Source of the DNA: Saprospiraceae bacterium
Lineage (GTDB): Bacteria > Bacteroidota > Bacteroidia > Chitinophagales > Saprospiraceae
Reading direction: 5' to 3'
Assembly (NCBI GenBank): GCA_020627705.1
Contig: JAHDGJ010000017.1
Coordinates: 16,473-80,472 of the forward strand
Length of the DNA: 64,000 bases
Part shown: positions 55,295 to 64,000 of the stretch, in pieces
How positions within the stretch are numbered: the first letter of the stretch is position 1
Layout: each line of letters starts with the position of its first letter
Translations under genes and position numbers: made by a program
The notes under the pieces: generated by a model
Database searches by the model: none
What the model saw: only the letters and a program-made list of their open reading frames with translations
What the model was told of the DNA's origin: nothing

Positions 55295-56233
55295 ATGCTC
55301 AAAGTTGGATTAGCTCAAATTGCTCCTGTTTGGCTGAATAAAAAAGCAACCCTTCAAAAAATAATTACCTATTGCAAAAAAGCCAAGGCAGAAAACTGCA
55401 ATCTCGTGGTCTTTGGAGAAGCCTTATTGCCTGGCTATCCATTTTGGCTGTCGTATTGTGATGGAGCAAAATTCAATTCTAAAGTTCAGAAAGAAATCTT
55501 TGCGCACTATTTCAATAATTCTGTCGAGGCACAAGTAGATCTAAAACCGCTGCAAATCTTATCCAAAGAAAAGGAGTTGGCCATCTATCTCGGTGTAATC
55601 GAAAAAGCCAAAGACCGCGGGGGCCATAGTCTATATTGCTCCTTAGTATACATTAATGAACTGGGTAAAATATGTTCGGTACATCGCAAACTCCAACCGA
55701 CATATGAAGAACGCTTGGTTTGGTCGCCAGGAGACGGGCATGGTTTGGTTACACATGCATTGGGAAAATTTACACTTGGTGGTTTAAATTGTTGGGAAAA
55801 CTGGATGCCACTTTCTAGGACGGCATTATACGCTCAAGGCGAAAATGTACACATCGCTGTTTGGCCAGGTTGCCTCCGGAATACTTCCTTGATTACTCCA
55901 TTTATCGCTCAAGAAGGGAGAACTTACTCCATTTCAGTATCTAGCTTAATGTCCAAAGACCTAATTACTGACGATATTCCACACGCAGAATTTATGCAAA
56001 ATCATTTTGACCCATGGCCTGCAGATGGCGGGACCTGTATTGCTAATCTTGACGGAAGCTGGCTTGTGGAACCCGTTGTTAAAACAGAAACACTTATAAC
56101 TGCCCATTTGGACTTCAAAAAAATTGTAGAAGAAAGACAAAATTTTGATCCTTCCGGCCATTATTCACGTCCTGATATTACCAAACTTATCGTAAACAGA
56201 GAAAGACAATCCATCATTGGCTTTCAAGAATAA
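55295..56233 (+). CDS. Nitrilase-superfamily enzyme, aliphatic nitrilase type
   Basis: The 312-residue protein shows the nitrilase triad: Glu42 in FGEALLPGYPF, Lys132 in HRKLQPTYEER and Cys166 in GGLNCWENWMPL. The Cys-Trp-Glu motif and the YEERLVW segment match true nitrilases (nitrile to carboxylic acid plus ammonia) better than amidases. It is cytosolic and homo-oligomeric by family. It follows the old T9SS terminator with its own start and is 9 bases ahead of the SnoaL-like gene. Confidence 0.88.
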   Translation: MLKVGLAQIAPVWLNKKATLQKIITYCKKAKAENCNLVVFGEALLPGYPFWLSYCDGAKFNSKVQKEIFAHYFNNSVEAQVDLKPLQILSKEKELAIYLGVIEKAKDRGGHSLYCSLVYINELGKICSVHRKLQPTYEERLVWSPGDGHGLVTHALGKFTLGGLNCWENWMPLSRTALYAQGENVHIAVWPGCLRNTSLITPFIAQEGRTYSISVSSLMSKDLITDDIPHAEFMQNHFDPWPADGGTCIANLDGSWLVEPVVKTETLITAHLDFKKIVEERQNFDPSGHYSRPDITKLIVNRERQSIIGFQE

Positions 56234-56242
56234 ATTACCTAA

Positions 56243-56854
56243 ATGAAAAGATACATTACCCTTTGTTTTACGCTTTGGGTTTGCCTTTCGGCGAATGCCC
56301 AATATTTATCTAAGGACAACCAGCAAAGTCCACAACAATCAAATCAAGCACTAAGCTCCATCGAAGGGGTAACTGGGGAAATGTTAAAGCTAATCTCGGG
56401 ACCCAAAGGTCAAGAAAGAGATTGGGAAAAATTTAGAAATCTATTTCTTCCTTCGGCCCAATTTTATGCACTCCCCTCGCCTAATCAAAATGGCAGCACA
56501 ATCACCTCTTGGAACCTCGAAGAATTTATCAGAACCCTAGGACCAATTTATAAAGCAGAAGGATTTTACGAAACGCCCATCGCTTATGACATCAATACAT
56601 TTAACGGCATGGCCAATGTGTTTCAGTCCTATACAGCTAAAAATGCAGCGGGTACATATAATGCCAAAGGCATTAACAATTTTATACTGATGTGGGATAA
56701 AAATCGATGGTGGATCGCAAGCGTCACTTGGAGTAATGCCGATACCAACAACCCGATTCCTAGTGACCTAAGTAAAGCAACTCCACAGAGTACTCCCAAT
56801 AAGCCTAAAGGAAAACTTGACAATATTAAGAAAGGAAAAATCAAACTGAATTAA
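56243..56854 (+). CDS. Exported SnoaL/NTF2-like protein
   Basis: A 203-residue protein with signal peptide (YITLCFTLWVCLSANAQ). The middle (EMLKLISGPKGQERDWEKFRNLFLPSAQFYAL ... KGINNFILMWDKNRWWIASVTWSN) fits the cone-shaped alpha+beta fold of SnoaL/NTF2-like proteins. The C-terminal tail is basic and low in complexity. It probably shares an mRNA with the nitrilase gene. No catalytic residues can be named. Confidence 0.7.
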   Translation: MKRYITLCFTLWVCLSANAQYLSKDNQQSPQQSNQALSSIEGVTGEMLKLISGPKGQERDWEKFRNLFLPSAQFYALPSPNQNGSTITSWNLEEFIRTLGPIYKAEGFYETPIAYDINTFNGMANVFQSYTAKNAAGTYNAKGINNFILMWDKNRWWIASVTWSNADTNNPIPSDLSKATPQSTPNKPKGKLDNIKKGKIKLN

Positions 56855-56877
56855 TTCAATTATTTGGTCAAAACGTA

Positions 56878-56889
56878 TTAACCGTTTAA
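56878..56889 (+). repeat. Direct repeat flanking the integrase, left copy
   Basis: TTAACCGTTTAA occurs here and at 58074-58085 on the other side of the integrase gene. Both contain an AACCG-TTT core resembling the CCG-TT crossover seen at all attC ends. Confidence 0.6.
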
Positions 56890-56910
56890 AGTAACTTCTT
56901 TGTTTTCTTG

Positions 56911-56946
56911 GAAACTAATATTGCGTTAGAATTCAATATTAGTTTC
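56911..56946 (+). promoter_or_regulatory. 13-bp perfect inverted repeat before the integrase
   Basis: GAAACTAATATTG (56911-56923) and CAATATTAGTTTC (56934-56946) pair perfectly across a 10-base loop, and the ATG at 56950 follows three bases later. It could be an operator or an RNA hairpin controlling integrase translation. Confidence 0.7.
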
Positions 56947-56949
56947 AAA

Positions 56950-58077
56950 ATGAAAGGGCCTAAAGTAACCGTTAGAAAGATCGTCCATCGTGGACATACT
57001 CGACTTGGACTATTTTTTAAGTATTCTAATGACGCACCAGCTCAACGCGTAAAGAATATTATCAAATCAATTCCGAACAGACGCTACAGCTACACCTTAA
57101 AGTGCTGGCATATCCCAAATACTCCACAGTCTATTATGGAGTTGAATCGTCTAAAAAATATTCTTTCATTTTACACAGAATACCAAAAGAAAAACAAAGA
57201 GGTCGTCCTAACAGAATTTGACGATGAGACGCTCATTCAATTACAAAGCTTTGAAAACTATCTAAAACAAAAACGCTATGCCGAAAGAACTATTCAATCC
57301 TACCTACAAGTGCTGAAGGTATTTACCAATTGGTTGAATAACAAAAAAGAAGATGGAATTTCTGAAAGCGCCATCCAGGCTTTTAATTTGGAATATTTCA
57401 TTCGTGGAAAATACTCTCGCAGCTATCAAAACATATTCGTTAATGCGATAAAACTGTATTTACAAAAAATAGAAAAAAGTCCGACCCCTTCTATCCAAGT
57501 AGAACGCCCTAGAAGAAGCAATAACTTGCCCAATGTTTTATCAGAAGACGAAATCAAAAAACTCATTCGTTCCTATTCAAATCTCAAACACCGATCAATA
57601 ATCCTATGTTATTATGCATGTGGCCTCAGAAAGTCAGAGCTCATAAACCTAAAACTTAGTGATTTAGACTGGGATCGAAAAATATTAAGAGTACGCAATA
57701 GTAAAGGAGCAAAAGATCGCGACATTTCATTGCCCATGCCCTTAGAAAATCTTTTAAAAAAATACATCTTACGATTCTCGCCCAAACAATATTTATTTAA
57801 TGGCAAAGGAAATATTCAGTATTCCGCACGAAGCATTGACAACTTACTTTCACAAGGATTACGAAGGGCTCAAATCAATAAAAAAATTACCGTTCATGGC
57901 TTACGACATAGCTACGCTACACACCTAGTAGAAAAAAACATCAACTTGCGCTTCATTCAAGAAGCACTTGGACACAAATCAAGTAAAACCACTGAAATTT
58001 ACACTAAACTAAGCAAGGAAAATATAGCAAAACTTGTCAGTCCCATTGACTTCTGGGAAGACGACACCCCTTCTTAA
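56950..58077 (+). CDS. Integron tyrosine recombinase, XerC/D-like
   Basis: The start at ATG 56950 is preferred to TTG 56908 because the latter lies within the inverted repeat region; numbering below is from TTG. An N-terminal domain (HRGHTRLGLFFKYSND ... YTLKCWHIPNT) and a SAM-like core-binding domain precede the catalytic domain with Arg241 (CGLRKSELI), Lys266 or 269, His330-x-x-Arg333 (HGLRHSYATHL), His356 (LGHKSSKTT) and Tyr365. Arg-to-Tyr spacing is 124 residues, like XerD (about 131) and shorter than IntI1 (about 166), so the IntI-specific insertion seems absent. It precedes an attC cassette array in the same orientation. Confidence 0.85.
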   Translation: MKGPKVTVRKIVHRGHTRLGLFFKYSNDAPAQRVKNIIKSIPNRRYSYTLKCWHIPNTPQSIMELNRLKNILSFYTEYQKKNKEVVLTEFDDETLIQLQSFENYLKQKRYAERTIQSYLQVLKVFTNWLNNKKEDGISESAIQAFNLEYFIRGKYSRSYQNIFVNAIKLYLQKIEKSPTPSIQVERPRRSNNLPNVLSEDEIKKLIRSYSNLKHRSIILCYYACGLRKSELINLKLSDLDWDRKILRVRNSKGAKDRDISLPMPLENLLKKYILRFSPKQYLFNGKGNIQYSARSIDNLLSQGLRRAQINKKITVHGLRHSYATHLVEKNINLRFIQEALGHKSSKTTEIYTKLSKENIAKLVSPIDFWEDDTPS

Positions 58078-58085
58078 CCGTTTAA
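58074..58085 (+). repeat. Direct repeat flanking the integrase, right copy
   Basis: Second copy of TTAACCGTTTAA, overlapping the integrase stop codon; see 56878-56889. Confidence 0.6.
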
Positions 58086-58192
58086 CAACACTTTTATTAC
58101 GCCATAACCCCCTCATTATTTCTTTCTCTTTAATATCTTACACTACCCTTTATACGCCATAACACACCAAATCTTTGGCTGATATAAGGGAG
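58078..58192 (+). other. attI-like region between integrase and first cassette
   Basis: The 115-bp region ends at G58192, the junction with the first cassette (G-TTACCGAC). It holds a direct repeat TACGCCATAAC at 58098-58108 and 58153-58163, possible recombinase-binding sites like the direct repeats of class 1 attI. A weak -7-like element (AATCTTTG around 58170) could be the cassette promoter. There is no attC-type palindrome here. Confidence 0.65.
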
Positions 58193-58207
58193 TTACCGAC
58201 AATTAAG

Positions 58208-59434
58208 ATGAAAGAATATATATTTCAAGGAGATTGGGAATCAGAATTAGAGTTAACCAACTTTAAGGAGTTTAGAAATGCTACAGGTTCATACACATCT
58301 TTAAACCAGAATACGAACGATGGAATCCTTAAATTATATATAGAGGATATCTTAGACGACAATCCTGATCCAACTAAACCACAAATTAATACCGTCAACT
58401 ATATCCTAAACAACCAACAAACAATAATTCAATCAATACTGGAAAAAGTAAATAGTGATTATTCAAGATTGCAAAACATCTATGGATACGAAGGTTCTGA
58501 AAAAGAGGAATTCATGCCTGATTTAAACACTGCTTTAGATATAAAAGGACTCATAGGATTCGGAAATATTCATGTATCACGATTTAGCAAAGATGGATAC
58601 GCTTATTATGGTTTAGAGGGTGGATGCACTTGGGACGATGAACATGGCATTGGCCTTATTCTGAATAGAGATGAAGTAATTGAGTTTGGCTCTGCAGATG
58701 AAGCATTCAGTTTTTATCCGAAAGTATTAAAGCATAATGGAGAATATGAGACATTCAAAAAAGAACAAGAGTCTCGCGACATTAGAAAGGTGATGCCTAG
58801 GAAATATAATCCTTCTCAAAAATATGGCAAATTAAAACCTAAACAATATTCAGCAAATCAATCTTATGAGTACGATTTAATAACAAGGAATTTCAATGAT
58901 GAATTGATTAAACAAATCGAAAAGGGAACAATCGACAAAGATCATAAATCCGAAAGTTGGAATGATAATCTGATCGAATGGGCAGCATGGAGAAAAAATA
59001 ATGAAGTACTAAAATATCTCGTAAAAGAAAATGCTAAGACAAGATATGCAATTCACCGCTGCACTGAAAATAATACTAACTTCGAAGGACTTAAAATCTT
59101 GATCGAATCTGGTATTGACATTGATCAAGTTAATGCAATAGGTGAAAATATTTTCTCTCATCAACTCCTAAAGTATGCAACACTTCTTGACATAAAGAAT
59201 AAATGGGAAAAGTCAGGAGATTTTTCTAACAGTGAAGACATGAACTTGAAAATGAATAGAATAGATCAAGTTTTACAATATTGCATTAAAAATGGAACGA
59301 ATAAATATTTAAAAAACACATATGGTTTTGATCCAATTAAAAAATTGAGACACTTAAATGAAGAAACAATTGATGAAGTAAAAAAAAGATACTATGAAAT
59401 CAAGAGTAACAAATGGAAATTTTGGAAAAAATAA
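58208..59434 (+). CDS. Cassette 1 protein, immunity-like with ankyrin-like region
   Basis: ATG 58208 is used; an open frame to 58175 reaches into attI and is not part of the cassette. The N-terminal 200 residues contain DIKGLIGFGNIHVSRFSKDG and YAYYGLEGGCTWDDEHGIGL, a pattern I recall from DUF6985-type immunity-like domains (low confidence). The second half has repeats resembling degenerate ankyrin units (SWNDNLIEWAAWRKNNEVLKYL). No signal peptide is seen. A role in toxin immunity or inter-bacterial conflict is possible, not shown. Confidence 0.6.
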   Translation: MKEYIFQGDWESELELTNFKEFRNATGSYTSLNQNTNDGILKLYIEDILDDNPDPTKPQINTVNYILNNQQTIIQSILEKVNSDYSRLQNIYGYEGSEKEEFMPDLNTALDIKGLIGFGNIHVSRFSKDGYAYYGLEGGCTWDDEHGIGLILNRDEVIEFGSADEAFSFYPKVLKHNGEYETFKKEQESRDIRKVMPRKYNPSQKYGKLKPKQYSANQSYEYDLITRNFNDELIKQIEKGTIDKDHKSESWNDNLIEWAAWRKNNEVLKYLVKENAKTRYAIHRCTENNTNFEGLKILIESGIDIDQVNAIGENIFSHQLLKYATLLDIKNKWEKSGDFSNSEDMNLKMNRIDQVLQYCIKNGTNKYLKNTYGFDPIKKLRHLNEETIDEVKKRYYEIKSNKWKFWKK

Positions 59435-59436
59435 CT

Positions 59437-59567
59437 GTCGGTAACAATAGACATCAGGTCATAATCGGCGAATGAAATTCTCTGAATTTCATTCTATCTT
59501 TATTTCCGATGACTACTTAGTCGAATCGTTCCCCACGGTGAACGATTACGACCGATGTCATCCACCG
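59437..59567 (+). repeat. attC site of cassette 1
   Basis: The outer arm GTCGGTAAC (59437-59445) pairs with the cassette's own start GTTACCGAC. The inner arms 59450-59468 and 59543-59559 (GACATC-A-GGTC with GACCGATGTC) pair with one extra base in the first arm, an extrahelical base as in classical attC. Between them is an 11-bp hairpin (59470-59480 with 59484-59494). It ends CACCG before the crossover to TTATACACC. Confidence 0.85.
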
Positions 59568-59590
59568 TTATACACCATCAAAATAAAAAA

Positions 59591-60985
59591 ATGAACAAAG
59601 AAATAGAAACTATAATTAAAGACTGTAAAGATCACAAACGTGAATCTTTGAAATTGAGAAATTTTGAACTCACCGAAATACCTGATGGAATTTTCGAGCT
59701 TACTCATTTAACATCACTTGATTTAATGAATAACAAAATTCAAAAAGTATCACCCAAAATATCTCAACTAACCGAACTAAAAGAACTTTGGTTAACCACT
59801 AATGAATTAGAATCTATTCCAATTGAAATTTCAGAATTACCAAAACTAAAAAGACTTCATCTTACAGAAAACAACTTTAAAAATATACCAATTGAATTAT
59901 TGTCAAATAAAAAAATAAGTCATTTATGTATGAGAGAAAATTCGATTGAATCTCTTCCAGCTGAAATTGAAAAAACATTGATTAGGGATATACAATTAGC
60001 TAATAATAAAATCTCAAAAATCCCTATGACTTTTGATAATGCAGATTTTTATTTATCACTAGGATTAAGAGGAAATCCATTGGAAGAACCACCAAGTGAA
60101 ATATTTCACGGAGACACAGCAACATTGTTTAGGTATCTTATTAAAAAGGACAGAGGAAGGACCTTTGACTTTGAATTCCCAAATGAAATAAGAACAACAT
60201 TTAAACAATACTTAATTTATTTTTCTGATTTCGTAAAAAACACAAAAGGCAAATATTTGGAATTTGAAATAAGAAACGTAGATAACGGGTTGAGTGTAGA
60301 AATTAAAACTGAAAACAATTCAGAAGAAGAAATAGCTGAGATTCAAAAATACATGCAAGAATATGTGAGTTTTATAAAATACAAAGTGGATGAAGTCAAT
60401 CCAAACTTTGAAATCGACATAGATGATACAACTAAACAATTTACTATGGTCGAACTCAGAAGTCAAATAAGAAACTTTTTTACACAACTAGAAATAAAGC
60501 AAGCTAGGATCGTTTCCTTAGAGGGCGATAGAGATCGTTATATGGAAATCCTACAAAATTTCACAAGTAAACCAACCGTAGTTAACATTACGAATCAAAA
60601 TAGTTCACAAAGCCTTTTAGTTCAAAGAAATGAATTTACAAATGAAATCAAAAACAACCTCCCGAATCTAATAGATCAAATAAATGAACTAAGAAGTCAG
60701 TTGCCAGATGAGCATAAATTCATAATCTCTGAATTAAAAGATATCGATCAAGAGCTTTTAGAACTTGAAGAATGTGAAATCAATGATGCAAGTATCAAGA
60801 AATCTACTTTCAAAAAACTCAAGAGAGTGTTAGAACAAATCAATGATGAGGACTCTGAATTGAACAAAACATTAAGTGCATCTAAAAAAACAATTGATGC
60901 TGCTCAAAAAATAGGTTCCACTTATAACAATTTTGCGGAATGGTTAGGGCTTCCACAAATTCCTAGAATATTCTTAGGAAAATGA
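59591..60985 (+). CDS. Cassette 2 leucine-rich-repeat coiled-coil protein
   Basis: ATG 59591 is used; the open frame to 59555 lies in the preceding attC. The N-terminal 150 residues are about five to six leucine-rich repeats of bacterial type (LTSLDLMNNKIQKVSPKISQ, LKELWLTTNELESIPIEISE, LKRLHLTENNFKNIPIELL). A mixed region follows, then a long helical/coiled-coil part (about residues 280-430) and a C-terminal tail ending NNFAEWLGLPQIPRIF. I recall similar tails on Bacteroidota effector-type proteins, which hints at a conflict or defence role. No toxic domain is identified. Confidence 0.65.
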   Translation: MNKEIETIIKDCKDHKRESLKLRNFELTEIPDGIFELTHLTSLDLMNNKIQKVSPKISQLTELKELWLTTNELESIPIEISELPKLKRLHLTENNFKNIPIELLSNKKISHLCMRENSIESLPAEIEKTLIRDIQLANNKISKIPMTFDNADFYLSLGLRGNPLEEPPSEIFHGDTATLFRYLIKKDRGRTFDFEFPNEIRTTFKQYLIYFSDFVKNTKGKYLEFEIRNVDNGLSVEIKTENNSEEEIAEIQKYMQEYVSFIKYKVDEVNPNFEIDIDDTTKQFTMVELRSQIRNFFTQLEIKQARIVSLEGDRDRYMEILQNFTSKPTVVNITNQNSSQSLLVQRNEFTNEIKNNLPNLIDQINELRSQLPDEHKFIISELKDIDQELLELEECEINDASIKKSTFKKLKRVLEQINDEDSELNKTLSASKKTIDAAQKIGSTYNNFAEWLGLPQIPRIFLGK

Positions 60986-60986
60986 C

Positions 60987-61047
60987 GGTGTATAACACAT
61001 GATGATGACGGCATACCCTTCGGGATACGCCGCATATCATAATTCCG
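60987..61047 (+). repeat. attC site of cassette 2
   Basis: A short attC of 61 bases. GGTGTATAAC (60987-60996) pairs with the cassette's own start. ATGATGATGACGGC and GCCGCATATCAT form the inner stem with two extra bases in the first arm, closing on a CCC-TTCG-GG loop. It ends TTCCG before TTATACCTC. Confidence 0.85.
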
Positions 61048-61170
61048 TTATACCTCACTTGACTGAAACTGAAATAAATATCTAAAATCTCACTATTTGA
61101 AATAAGCAACATCAAGCTTTTCGCAGAAAATAAATAATTAGTTGTTCATTAAAGGAGCTAATTTTAATAT

Positions 61171-62181
61171 ATGGATTCAATAACGCAAGGATTACTTGGA
61201 GCGGTTACGTTTACTTTAGTGAAAAACAAGGAAATTGGAAAGAAATCCATGCTAATTGGTGCAATTTCCGGATCAATTCCTGATTTTGACGTTTTACTCG
61301 CACCTTTTTTTAATTCAATAGAATTCTTAACTATACACAGAAGCTTTTCTCATTCAATTCTATTTTCCTTAATACTAAGCCCAATACTTGGAGAACTATT
61401 TTATCGCAAATACAAAGGAAAAGGGTCGAGATTTTCGTGGAATTTAGCTTTCTTTTTAGCAATTTTCACACATTCGATATTGGATTGGTGTACTACATAT
61501 GGAACCAAACTAATCAGCCCATTCAATGATCATTTATTTTCACTGAATTCAATTCATGTTATTGACCCCATTTATACAGGCATTTTATTATTTGGAAGTA
61601 TATATCTCATTCGAAATTGGAATAATGATTCAAAAAGAAAAATTACTTCTTGGCTAACCATTGGAATTTCGATCACCTATCTCGTCATTGGCTTGATTTC
61701 TAAAAATCATGCTTTCTATCATTTTAAAGCTCAATTAGAAAAAGATAACATTGTCTATGAAGATATTCTAGTTTCTCCAACTCCTCTAAATATTCTTCTA
61801 TGGCACGGAATTGTAAAAGAAAAAAATGGTTATCACTTTGCGACCTATTCCATATTCGACAAAAACAAACCTATTAAATTTCAGTTCGAAAAAAGTGAAA
61901 ACGAAATTATTGATCAAATCGAAGAAAATAGATTAATAAAATTCTACTTGGAATACACTCAGGAATTCCCATTGATACGTAAAGATGTCAATGAAAATGT
62001 TGAAATTTATGCAATCAAATATGGCCCAATGAATTATTATGGAAAACCAGAATTCGTCTATCCTCTGAAATTCAACCTTAACAATATTAATGATGAATCT
62101 ATCTTCATTGATTATGAAGGAAAAAAAAGAGGGCCTGTTAAAAATTATAAAAGTCTATTCAAGAGAATTTTAGGAATGTAA
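61171..62181 (+). CDS. Cassette 3 YdjM-like membrane metal-hydrolase family protein
   Basis: A 336-residue membrane protein starting MDSITQGLLGAVTFTLVKNK, with GAISGSIPDFDVLLAPFF, HRSFSHSILFSLIL and FTHSILDWCTTYGTKLISPF. These His/Asp patterns match the YdjM family (LexA-regulated, predicted membrane-bound metal-dependent hydrolases). About five membrane helices occupy residues 1-185; the C-terminal 150 residues form a soluble beta-rich domain. The substrate is unknown. Confidence 0.75.
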   Translation: MDSITQGLLGAVTFTLVKNKEIGKKSMLIGAISGSIPDFDVLLAPFFNSIEFLTIHRSFSHSILFSLILSPILGELFYRKYKGKGSRFSWNLAFFLAIFTHSILDWCTTYGTKLISPFNDHLFSLNSIHVIDPIYTGILLFGSIYLIRNWNNDSKRKITSWLTIGISITYLVIGLISKNHAFYHFKAQLEKDNIVYEDILVSPTPLNILLWHGIVKEKNGYHFATYSIFDKNKPIKFQFEKSENEIIDQIEENRLIKFYLEYTQEFPLIRKDVNENVEIYAIKYGPMNYYGKPEFVYPLKFNLNNINDESIFIDYEGKKRGPVKNYKSLFKRILGM

Positions 62182-62186
62182 TTCGC

Positions 62187-62322
62187 GAGGTATAACAGCA
62201 GGTGATCATGCCATCGGCTAATCCACATTTGAATTCCCTACGTGAAGTCATTTGCAAGAATTATATTTGATTGCGCTTGTAACCGCTGTAGGTGATCGCC
62301 GACAGCAGATACCAGCAAACCG
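62187..62322 (+). repeat. attC site of cassette 3
   Basis: GAGGTATAAC (62187-62196) pairs with the cassette's own start. Inner arms AGCAGGTGATC ... ATCGGC and GCCGACAGCAGATACCAGC pair with one extra G in the first arm and some mismatches. The central part resembles that of attC 4 (TGAATTC ... CGTGAA ... GCAAG ... TATATTTGA). It ends AACCG before TTACACATC. Confidence 0.82.
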
Positions 62323-62356
62323 TTACACATCATATATTGAAAAATAAATTATACAT

Positions 62357-62806
62357 ATGAATCAAGATCCATCGCAAAAAAAATTATTAGAATATATCTT
62401 GGCAAAAAAATCAATAATTCAAACCGAAATAGATTTTAATAGGAAATTTGAGTCAATATTCAAATCAGTTCTGTCAATTAAAATTGAAGAATATTCTAAT
62501 CTTCTTTCAAATGAAATTGGCACCTTTTTAAAATTTGATAAAAATATAAACAATGATGGGAGTCCCTCAGCAGTGATAATTAGAGTTTTCAAAAAGGATC
62601 AAAACGAAGTGCTTGAAAAAGAAAAAGTGCCACAATTATGGATAACTACGAATATGACTCAGAAAAAACTAAGATTTATGGAACAAATAGAAGATATGGG
62701 ATTGAGTGATATTATACAGTTAGATCCCAATGAAGTTAGCAGCGATGTATTTAGCAATATCCTCGGAACTTTTTTAGAAAAAGCACTTAGACAACAATAT
62801 GACTAA
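62357..62806 (+). CDS. Cassette 4 first gene, unknown partner of the patatin protein
   Basis: I do not recognise this 149-residue protein. It is helical at the N-terminus (KKLLEYILAKKSIIQTEIDFNRKF) and then mixed, with an alternating stretch SAVIIRVFKKDQNEVLEKEKVPQLWITTNMT and a final helix. It has no signal peptide. The 8-base overlap with the phospholipase gene implies coupled translation, so it may regulate, sense for or inhibit that enzyme. Confidence 0.6.
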   Translation: MNQDPSQKKLLEYILAKKSIIQTEIDFNRKFESIFKSVLSIKIEEYSNLLSNEIGTFLKFDKNINNDGSPSAVIIRVFKKDQNEVLEKEKVPQLWITTNMTQKKLRFMEQIEDMGLSDIIQLDPNEVSSDVFSNILGTFLEKALRQQYD

Positions 62807-63827
62807 GAATATTTTTAAAATAATCTCGATTGATGGAGGGGGAATACGTGGATATGCACCAGTATCATTAATTCAATATATTCAATCTAGAACTAAAACC
62901 GCAATTCATAATTCTTTCGATTTATTTGCGGGAACTTCAACTGGTGCCATAATATGTACTGCTCTTACATTAAGTGATAAAAAATCAATAATTTCAAATC
63001 GAAGAAAATATACTGCTAGCAAATTAAAAAAACTGTATTCCAATAATGCCACTCAAATTTTTCCAGCATTTAAAACTAAAGGAGCCAAAAATCTAAATTG
63101 GCTTTTTTCATTCAACAAACCAGAATACGATAATTCTGGACTACGAGCTTTACTCGAAGAGTATTATGAAAATGAAAAAATTTCTTCTTGCTTAAAACCA
63201 ATATACGTTCCAACCTTTGATCTAATAAACAATAAACCATTAATTTTTACATCAAGAGCTGCATACGAATTTGGTCCCAAAAATTTAAAGTTAACTGAAA
63301 TCTTAATGGCCGCAACGGCCGCCCCAACTTATTTCCAATCCAGAGAGCTTATATACGATAGCCTACCTAAAAACTGTATAGATGGAGGAATAGTCTTAAA
63401 CAACCCGGCATTAGGTGCATTAATTGAGGTTCTTGAATATCAGAAGCATCCAGTTTATAATCTCGAAAAATTTGATGAAATAAAAATACTTTCAATTGGA
63501 ACAGGAATCTTTAAAAAGAATATCACAAGGGCTGAATCCAAAAACTGGGGATGGTATAGCTGGACAAGACCAGTAATTGATATATCAATGTTTGGAACTT
63601 CTGAAATGATTGATGACCAAATAAAAACAATTGCTAAAAATTGTAAAATCCCAATCAGTCATGAAAGATTTAATATTAGCTTGACGAATAAAAATTTTAG
63701 CGGAATGGATAATTCACATCCGCTTGCAATACAGTATTTAAAGGATGAAATAAATTCACAATGGCTTCAAAATCCTGAAGAATTAAAAAGATTAGATAAA
63801 TTTTTAGCAGAAATGAAATTGATCTAA
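62799..63827 (+). CDS. Cassette 4 patatin-like phospholipase
   Basis: The 342-residue protein has all patatin features: oxyanion loop DGGGIRGYAPVSL (residues about 10-22), nucleophile Ser in GTSTGAIICTAL and catalytic Asp in CIDGGIVLNNPALG. Patatin phospholipases cleave membrane phospholipids and serve as effectors in CBASS and other anti-phage systems (CapV). No cyclase gene is next to it, only the 149-residue partner. It may act as a membrane-damaging effector in a two-gene defence unit, an inference. Confidence 0.85.
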   Translation: MTKNIFKIISIDGGGIRGYAPVSLIQYIQSRTKTAIHNSFDLFAGTSTGAIICTALTLSDKKSIISNRRKYTASKLKKLYSNNATQIFPAFKTKGAKNLNWLFSFNKPEYDNSGLRALLEEYYENEKISSCLKPIYVPTFDLINNKPLIFTSRAAYEFGPKNLKLTEILMAATAAPTYFQSRELIYDSLPKNCIDGGIVLNNPALGALIEVLEYQKHPVYNLEKFDEIKILSIGTGIFKKNITRAESKNWGWYSWTRPVIDISMFGTSEMIDDQIKTIAKNCKIPISHERFNISLTNKNFSGMDNSHPLAIQYLKDEINSQWLQNPEELKRLDKFLAEMKLI

Positions 63828-63830
63828 TAC

Positions 63831-63964
63831 GATGTGTAACACTAGGTAGTACGCTATTGGCTCTCCCCCATCTGAATTCACTCCGTGAATTCATCAGCAA
63901 GGACTATATTTGACTGGGAATGCGAACGCTGAATGTATGCGCCATCAGCGACTACCATCCACCG
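63831..63964 (+). repeat. attC site of cassette 4
   Basis: GATGTGTAAC (63831-63840) pairs with the cassette's own start. Inner arms GGTAGTACGCTATTGGC and GCCATCAGCGACTACC pair with an extra base in the first arm. A near-palindrome TGAATTCACTCCGTGAATTCA lies in the centre. It ends CACCG before TTAGATAAC. Confidence 0.82.
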
Positions 63965-64000
63965 TTAGATAACATGATGATTTCGGGGCTGACTAATGGA
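63965..64000 (+). mobile_element. Start of integron cassette 5, cut by the window edge
   Basis: The next cassette begins TTAGATAAC after G63964. Only 36 bases are visible and no gene can be called. By the rule seen in the other cassettes, its attC should start with GTTATCTAAC or a close match. Confidence 0.7.

Follow-up and report, generated by a model that had tools for sequence, protein, structure and literature searches.

Can a tyrosine recombinase that lacks the additional domain of IntI, and with it the I2 helix, serve an integron cassette array? The question is raised by the end of a 64,000-nucleotide stretch of a Saprospiraceae bacterium genome (GenBank assembly GCA_020627705.1, contig JAHDGJ010000017.1; hereafter the window), where the gene of an integron-type recombinase without this insertion is directly followed by tandem cassettes. 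In the parts of the literature drawn on here, IntI is described as reading unpaired bases of the attC L'' arm with the I2 helix (PMC7790495, PMC2727003), the gain of I2 is presented as the event that gave rise to integrons, for which intermediates are lacking (PMC7790495), the additional domain is called necessary (PMC9668308), and integrases were picked in an earlier survey by the additional domain or patch (PMC2426708). For Bacteroidetes proper, IntegronFinder 2.0 is reported to yield one complete integron, in Salinibacter ruber M1, and an earlier version of the program only integrases without cassettes (PMC9024848). From comparisons of sequences we conclude that the window carries an integron-type array and that the adjacent recombinase quite probably inserts and excises the cassettes itself.

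Cassette array downstream of the recombinase gene

The locus comprises the following features, given by position in the window and strand.

56950..58077, plus strand: tyrosine recombinase, integron-type, without the IntI additional domain (PF00589, TIGR02249, alignment)
58181..58200, plus strand: attI-like site around GATATAAGGGAG^TTACCGAC (TATAA..GTTR-like motif and junction)
58193..59567, plus strand: cassette 1, open reading frame (ORF) 58208-59434 with DUF6985 and a weak ankyrin match (own R'' at 59437; Pfam)
59437..59575, minus strand: attC 1, 139 nt, bottom-strand hairpin (z-score -5.4; L'' bulge and G.T wobble)
59568..61047, plus strand: cassette 2, ORF 59591-60985 with leucine-rich repeats (own R'' at 60988; Pfam)
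60988..61055, minus strand: attC 2, 68 nt, short type as in attC sites of other genera (z-score -3.8; model R1)
61048..62322, plus strand: cassette 3, ORF 61171-62181, YdjM-type membrane protein (own R'' at 62188; Pfam)
62188..62330, minus strand: attC 3, 143 nt, with R stem, spacer and bulged L stem (z-score -1.0)
62323..63964, plus strand: cassette 4, overlapping ORFs 62357-62806 (unknown) and 62799-63827 (patatin phospholipase) (own R'' at 63832)
63832..63972, minus strand: attC 4, 141 nt (z-score -2.6; L'' bulge and G.T wobble)
63965..64000, plus strand: start of cassette 5, 36 bases, after which the contig (G000:C33) ends

The four complete cassettes stand in tandem in the same orientation, each with an attC at its 3' end. 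In all four (58193-63964) the first nine bases of the attC are the exact reverse complement of the cassette's own start, the GTT and R'' of each pair of 9-mers lying at 58192/59437, 59567/60988, 61047/62188 and 62322/63832. Run on the rest of the window, the same test gave 0-2 pairs for each 8 kb; the last 8 kb yielded a single extra pair besides those of the array, which we put down to chance. Cassette 1 begins with GTTACCGAC, 114 bases after the end of the recombinase gene, and the junctions read GAG^TT at attI and CCG^TT at the four later positions; the attI crossover would fall after G58192. A first-pass annotation of this DNA, made from the sequence alone, had claimed four integron-type cassettes complementary to their own starts and beginning with TT after GAG or CCG, and both observations hold.

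The patatin phospholipase of cassette 4 resembles an effector of the cyclic oligonucleotide-based antiphage signalling system (CBASS; PDLC00758, E 4.4e-65), its match to NF041079 being 173.9 bits, under the cut-off of 200. The attC 2 site matched model R1 with E 7.8e-10, although it is itself among the sites on which R1 was trained. An Rfam scan of 56000-64000 returned no matches, and ARAGORN returned no tRNAs. On another contig of the same genome, a solo attC-like stretch (G000:C34:8858-8987; L256, L257) is 74% identical to the region of attC 3; an own-complementary cassette was not found there and the stretch looks decayed.

The recombinase lacks the IntI additional domain

The recombinase is 375 aa long from the ATG at 56950, or 389 aa from a TTG at 56908, and matches PF00589 with E 7.6e-37. 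Against the IntI model TIGR02249 it scored 173.8 bits, well under the cut-off of 265, with the match split in two stretches: profile positions 2-179 match the window recombinase, the second piece in its relatives starts at about 231-252, and the middle is absent. The Arg-Tyr spacing is 124 residues (124-125 in the class) compared to 166 in 15 of 15 canonical IntIs, and an alignment with IntI places a gap in the recombinase where IntI has the additional domain. An AlphaFold2 model (predicted local distance difference test score, pLDDT, 84.8) has a loop and no helix between residues 290 and 307. The absence of the insertion and the failure of the standard IntI model to pick up the class, both proposed in the first-pass annotation, are supported. 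Its further description of the enzyme as XerD-like stands as far as the missing insertion and the spacing of 124 are concerned, while the tree described below and a C-terminal SPxD motif, common to IntI and three aligned insert-less rows and absent from two Xer rows, ally the recombinase with IntI and not with Xer. The protein also missed the XerC/XerD equivalog cut-offs (TIGR02225, 163.5 versus 329.6 bits; TIGR02224, 156.4 versus 335.15).

An extra N-terminal domain is present in the recombinase (window 56968-57150, residues 21-81 of the 389-aa frame). Judging by length, the array-linked relatives L025 (303 aa) and L027 (313 aa) appear to be without it, and the link between recombinase and array may not require the domain.

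Recombinase and cassettes recur together in relatives

We scored a locus as linked when the exact reverse complement of nine bases at a GTTR, at most 300 bases after the recombinase stop, recurred at a distance of 200-4500 bases further downstream. The first set comprised 43 loci, i.e., the window with loci of its family and order that had at least 1 kb downstream; L013, L058 and loci without the motif or with less than 1 kb downstream were excluded from this count, and a separate survey of the loci left out the duplicates L044-L046 and the uncounted L055. An own-cassette match was found in 23 of the 43, compared to a mean of 1.05 and a maximum of 4 when the downstream sequences were swapped between loci (200 swaps). 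For an out-of-sample set we took the next 40 best matches of a phylum-wide search, own genome excluded, and retained 33 after removing one without a recognisable C-terminal motif and six with less than 1 kb downstream. Here, 29 of 33 loci had an own-cassette match (swapped mean 2.6, maximum 7; 500 swaps). The swap controls in both sets rule out a chance association of recombinase and cassettes, and the claim that the class is spread through Bacteroidota is supported by the loci of both sets; the relatives very likely belong to this phylum, judging by homologue names and named plasmids.

A hairpin scoring at least 12 was headed by 17 of the 23 first-set matches, and one scoring at least 11 by 25 of the 29 out of sample. 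In nine of ten chosen complete or large contigs we followed 26 chained cassettes, 1-6 in each of the nine (0-6 per locus over all ten, up to six consecutive), 23 of them joined by exact 9-mers; the median length of their attC sites was 136. A TATAA..GTTR-like motif shortly after the recombinase stop was seen in many relatives, not in all. Among 150 genomes sampled from the family, attC sites (model R3) were present in 90, the recombinase in 90 and both in 65, giving an odds ratio of 3.64 (p 3e-4) with a model trained on sites from some of the sampled genomes. Where attC sites shared a contig with the recombinase, 27 of 28 among the 112 matches listed lay downstream, a mostly circular figure as 20 of the 28 are training sites of the model; of the eight untrained ones, seven lay downstream and one upstream.

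Three further loci were inspected individually. In L013 (2400-2700), a relative with 51% identity, the 3' end of the recombinase is cut short and followed by an attC and a cassette; this is apparently an inactivated integrase beside its own array. On plasmid pHH1107 (L155, 4714-6165) an insert-less relative (TnpF) is followed by an attI-like GTTATGTGCC and then directly by tet(X3), after which comes what by eye resembles the beginning of a long-type attC, soon cut off; the cassette start shows no match to the R''-like bases downstream. On a Flagellimonas plasmid (L157) a relative named xerA stands beside erm(F), the TATAA..GTTR-like motif was not seen, and the single low-scoring 9-base match downstream is probably due to chance.

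Folding and possible strand marking of the attC sites

The first-pass annotation suggested folding the bottom strands of the attC sites. The bottom strand was the more stable at all four sites of the window, with z-scores of -5.4, -3.8, -1.0 and -2.6 for attC 1-4 compared to -1.4 to +1.3 in four control segments. Two sites are less clear: for attC 3 the energy by itself does not reach significance, since 27 of 200 shuffled sequences folded equally well or better, and the minimum free energy structure of attC 4 is without the R-box stem. In 20 short attC hairpins the paired positions covaried (0.527, versus 0.175 shuffled and at most 0.136 slid), and one pair of the alignment was G.U in 20 of 20.

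We then compared 51 attC sites, made up of 25 of 33 first-set rows (score at least 12; eight dropped) and 26 out-of-sample sites (score at least 11), the latter including L242, whose locus is too short for the 33-locus count. At a stem length W of 18, every one of the 51 sites had at least one L-stem pair that reads G.T on the bottom strand and A.C on the top, with 74 wobbles on the bottom strand versus 8 on the top. Sites with the wobble numbered 17, 23, 42, 51 and 51 at W = 12, 14, 16, 18 and 22, fewer at the shorter lengths because the pair sits well inside the stem. Extrahelical bases on the L'' arm were seen in 14, 12, 15, 19 and 21 sites at the same lengths; those at W=18 (19 of 51) included none of the 26 out-of-sample sites, and one of these 26 had them at W=22. 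The window sites have both features, extrahelical bases being present in 4 of 4. Extrahelical bases were present in all six attC sites taken from canonical IntI loci of the same phylum, and none of the six had the wobble, a comparison of few sites whose stem lengths may differ. These six were kept from ten rows as having a cassette start 169-222 nt from an IntI gene end (one L139 row, L142 and two L145 rows were dropped). A literature search on the wobble feature found no paper with that word.

Two layouts occur at the canonical loci: in L125, L137 and L139 the first cassette follows the integrase gene by about 170 nt in the same direction, and L146, L148 and L152 are divergent, with the array about 220 nt upstream.

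Signs of cassette movement

Loci of the same genus were compared in 66 pairs, leaving out L239 (no attI) and L216 (no stop). In nine pairs the attI side was 0.86-0.95 identical over the 100 bases before the GTT, and the 300 bases after it were 0.58-0.64 identical, the level of unrelated pairs; these are one pair of Chryseobacterium plasmids, six pairs from genus g258 and, in g218, the pairs L226/L231 and L235/L236. The converse was seen in L214/L249, where the attI sides are 0.62 identical and the cassette is 97.6% identical over 1062 nt from the junction exactly. Moreover, in L012, L015, L021 and L215 the contig breaks off precisely at the GTTA of attI.

Phylogeny of the insert-less recombinases

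In a tree of 86 rows, the 15 IntI rows formed one group (100/100) with all 51 insert-less rows outside, and one branch (88/80) split these 66 rows from 20 Xer-type rows. The insert-less rows thus group with IntI and not with the Xer-type rows, which the first-pass annotation had proposed to decide by such a tree, and this comparison supports their kinship to IntI. In the first tree, of 75 rows, IntI fell among the insert-less rows, and in another the branch with the insert-less rows on one side had a support of only 64/78; the insert-less proteins would be either sister to IntI or a set among which IntI is nested, as the trees disagree.

Alternative explanations

Several observations weigh against the recombinase moving these cassettes. 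The I2 helix is held necessary for cassette capture (PMC7790495). The own-cassette match was absent in 20 of the 43 first-set and 4 of the 33 out-of-sample loci, and some matches head no hairpin of the required score: L017, L038 and L050 lie close to where the contig stops, the hairpins of L062 and L097 score lower, L054 is without one, and out of sample L222, L229 and L237 have lower-scoring hairpins and L232 has neither hairpin nor chained cassette, its match likely being due to chance. In the family sample, 25 of the 90 attC-positive genomes had no recombinase match (E 1e-30) and 25 of the 90 recombinase-positive genomes no short-type attC, and the one upstream site among the eight untrained ones (G061) is in the opposite sense.

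The cassettes could be a cluster of attC sites lacking an integron integrase (CALIN), moved in trans by host XerC/XerD or an unseen IntI, with the recombinase as a bystander. The window's genome does encode a host XerD (L001, 338.1 bits, over the cut-off) together with a XerC-like protein that stays under the corresponding cut-off, and the 25 attC-positive genomes without a recombinase match would fit such an arrangement. However, TIGR02249 was over its cut-off in none of the 26 genomes with insert-less loci (a set that takes in G089 on its attI alone), and these genomes therefore yielded no canonical IntI that could act in trans; nor was the model over the cut-off in any of those 25 attC-only genomes. 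Since own-complementary cassettes also recur right after the recombinase in 29 of 33 loci, and four contigs stop exactly at the attI GTTA, we regard this explanation as very improbable. Scarcely better placed, and in our view still unlikely, is a recombinase that works on double-stranded sites like Xer, the hairpins serving another role or being relics: a double-stranded reaction does not need an R'' that complements its own cassette start, and the covariation of the hairpin and the excess of bottom-strand wobbles also speak against it. Our preferred reading thus remains that the insert-less enzyme acts on its own array. On its origin, the insert-less integrases may be descendants of IntI that lost I2 rather than an older form, a question separate from their function. 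The disagreement of the trees and the extrahelical bases still present in the window attC sites point this way, whereas the IntI rows form a single group with no insert-less row inside the sampled IntIs; we consider such a loss a real possibility, though short of probable.

In a phylum sample of 395 genomes, canonical IntI was found in 105, of which one belongs to the window's class, and canonical integrons are therefore common elsewhere in the phylum. A recombinase match (E 1e-45, a threshold not specific to array-linked proteins) was found in 104, 48 of them in the window's class, and 28 genomes had both. One genome of the same family (L209, G028:C40) encodes a canonical IntI that does have the insertion (421.9 bits); short-type attC sites were not found there.

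Discussion

The array shares with canonical integrons an attI-like junction, directional cassettes, an attC hairpin with R and L boxes, the G after AAC and the complementarity of each attC to the start of its own cassette. It differs in the missing additional domain of the integrase with its shorter Arg-Tyr spacing, and in attC sites that carry a conserved bottom-strand G.T wobble and often lack extrahelical bases. The chromosomal integrons of Treponema (PMC3607928), as far as described in the part cited, are intI integrons, in contrast to the integrase here, which is without the insertion. An 'integron-like' subgroup (PMC8138268) unites integrases with relatives whose insertion is 'not fully conserved', a description that suits the present proteins, but the cited part of that paper reports no attC arrays for such members and calls the insertion essential for integron function. 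The best NCBIfam match of the recombinase by bits, and its nearest solved fold, is XerA / NF040815 ('site-specific tyrosine recombinase/integron integrase'); yet it scored 200.3 bits, under the cut-off of 220, and archaeal NF040815 rows fell on the Xer side of the tree. In the open-licence PubMed Central literature we found no account of integron integrases that lack the insertion and accompany attC arrays.

Because the pairing of recombinase and array recurs in many relatives, the enzyme likely moves cassettes by a different way. The recombinase would bind the folded bottom strand of attC and exchange it with attI, as IntI does. Since an I2 helix for docking extrahelical bases is missing, the choice of strand would rest on another feature, for which the conserved L-stem pair, G.T in the bottom strand and a mismatched A.C in the top, is a candidate; this wobble may set the recombined strand. 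It is conceivable, if doubtful, that integrons can dispense with the I2 helix, that a large insert-less class in Bacteroidota recombines folded single-stranded attC sites with the G.T wobble, in place of extrahelical bases, marking the correct strand, and that IntI, with its I2 and bulge docking, later developed from this older form.

If insert-less integrases do move cassettes, the requirement for I2 would fall and a large pool of cassettes would have been overlooked so far. Natural proteins would then be on hand for testing how single-strand recombination evolved, and the accepted view of how integrons originated and work would change.

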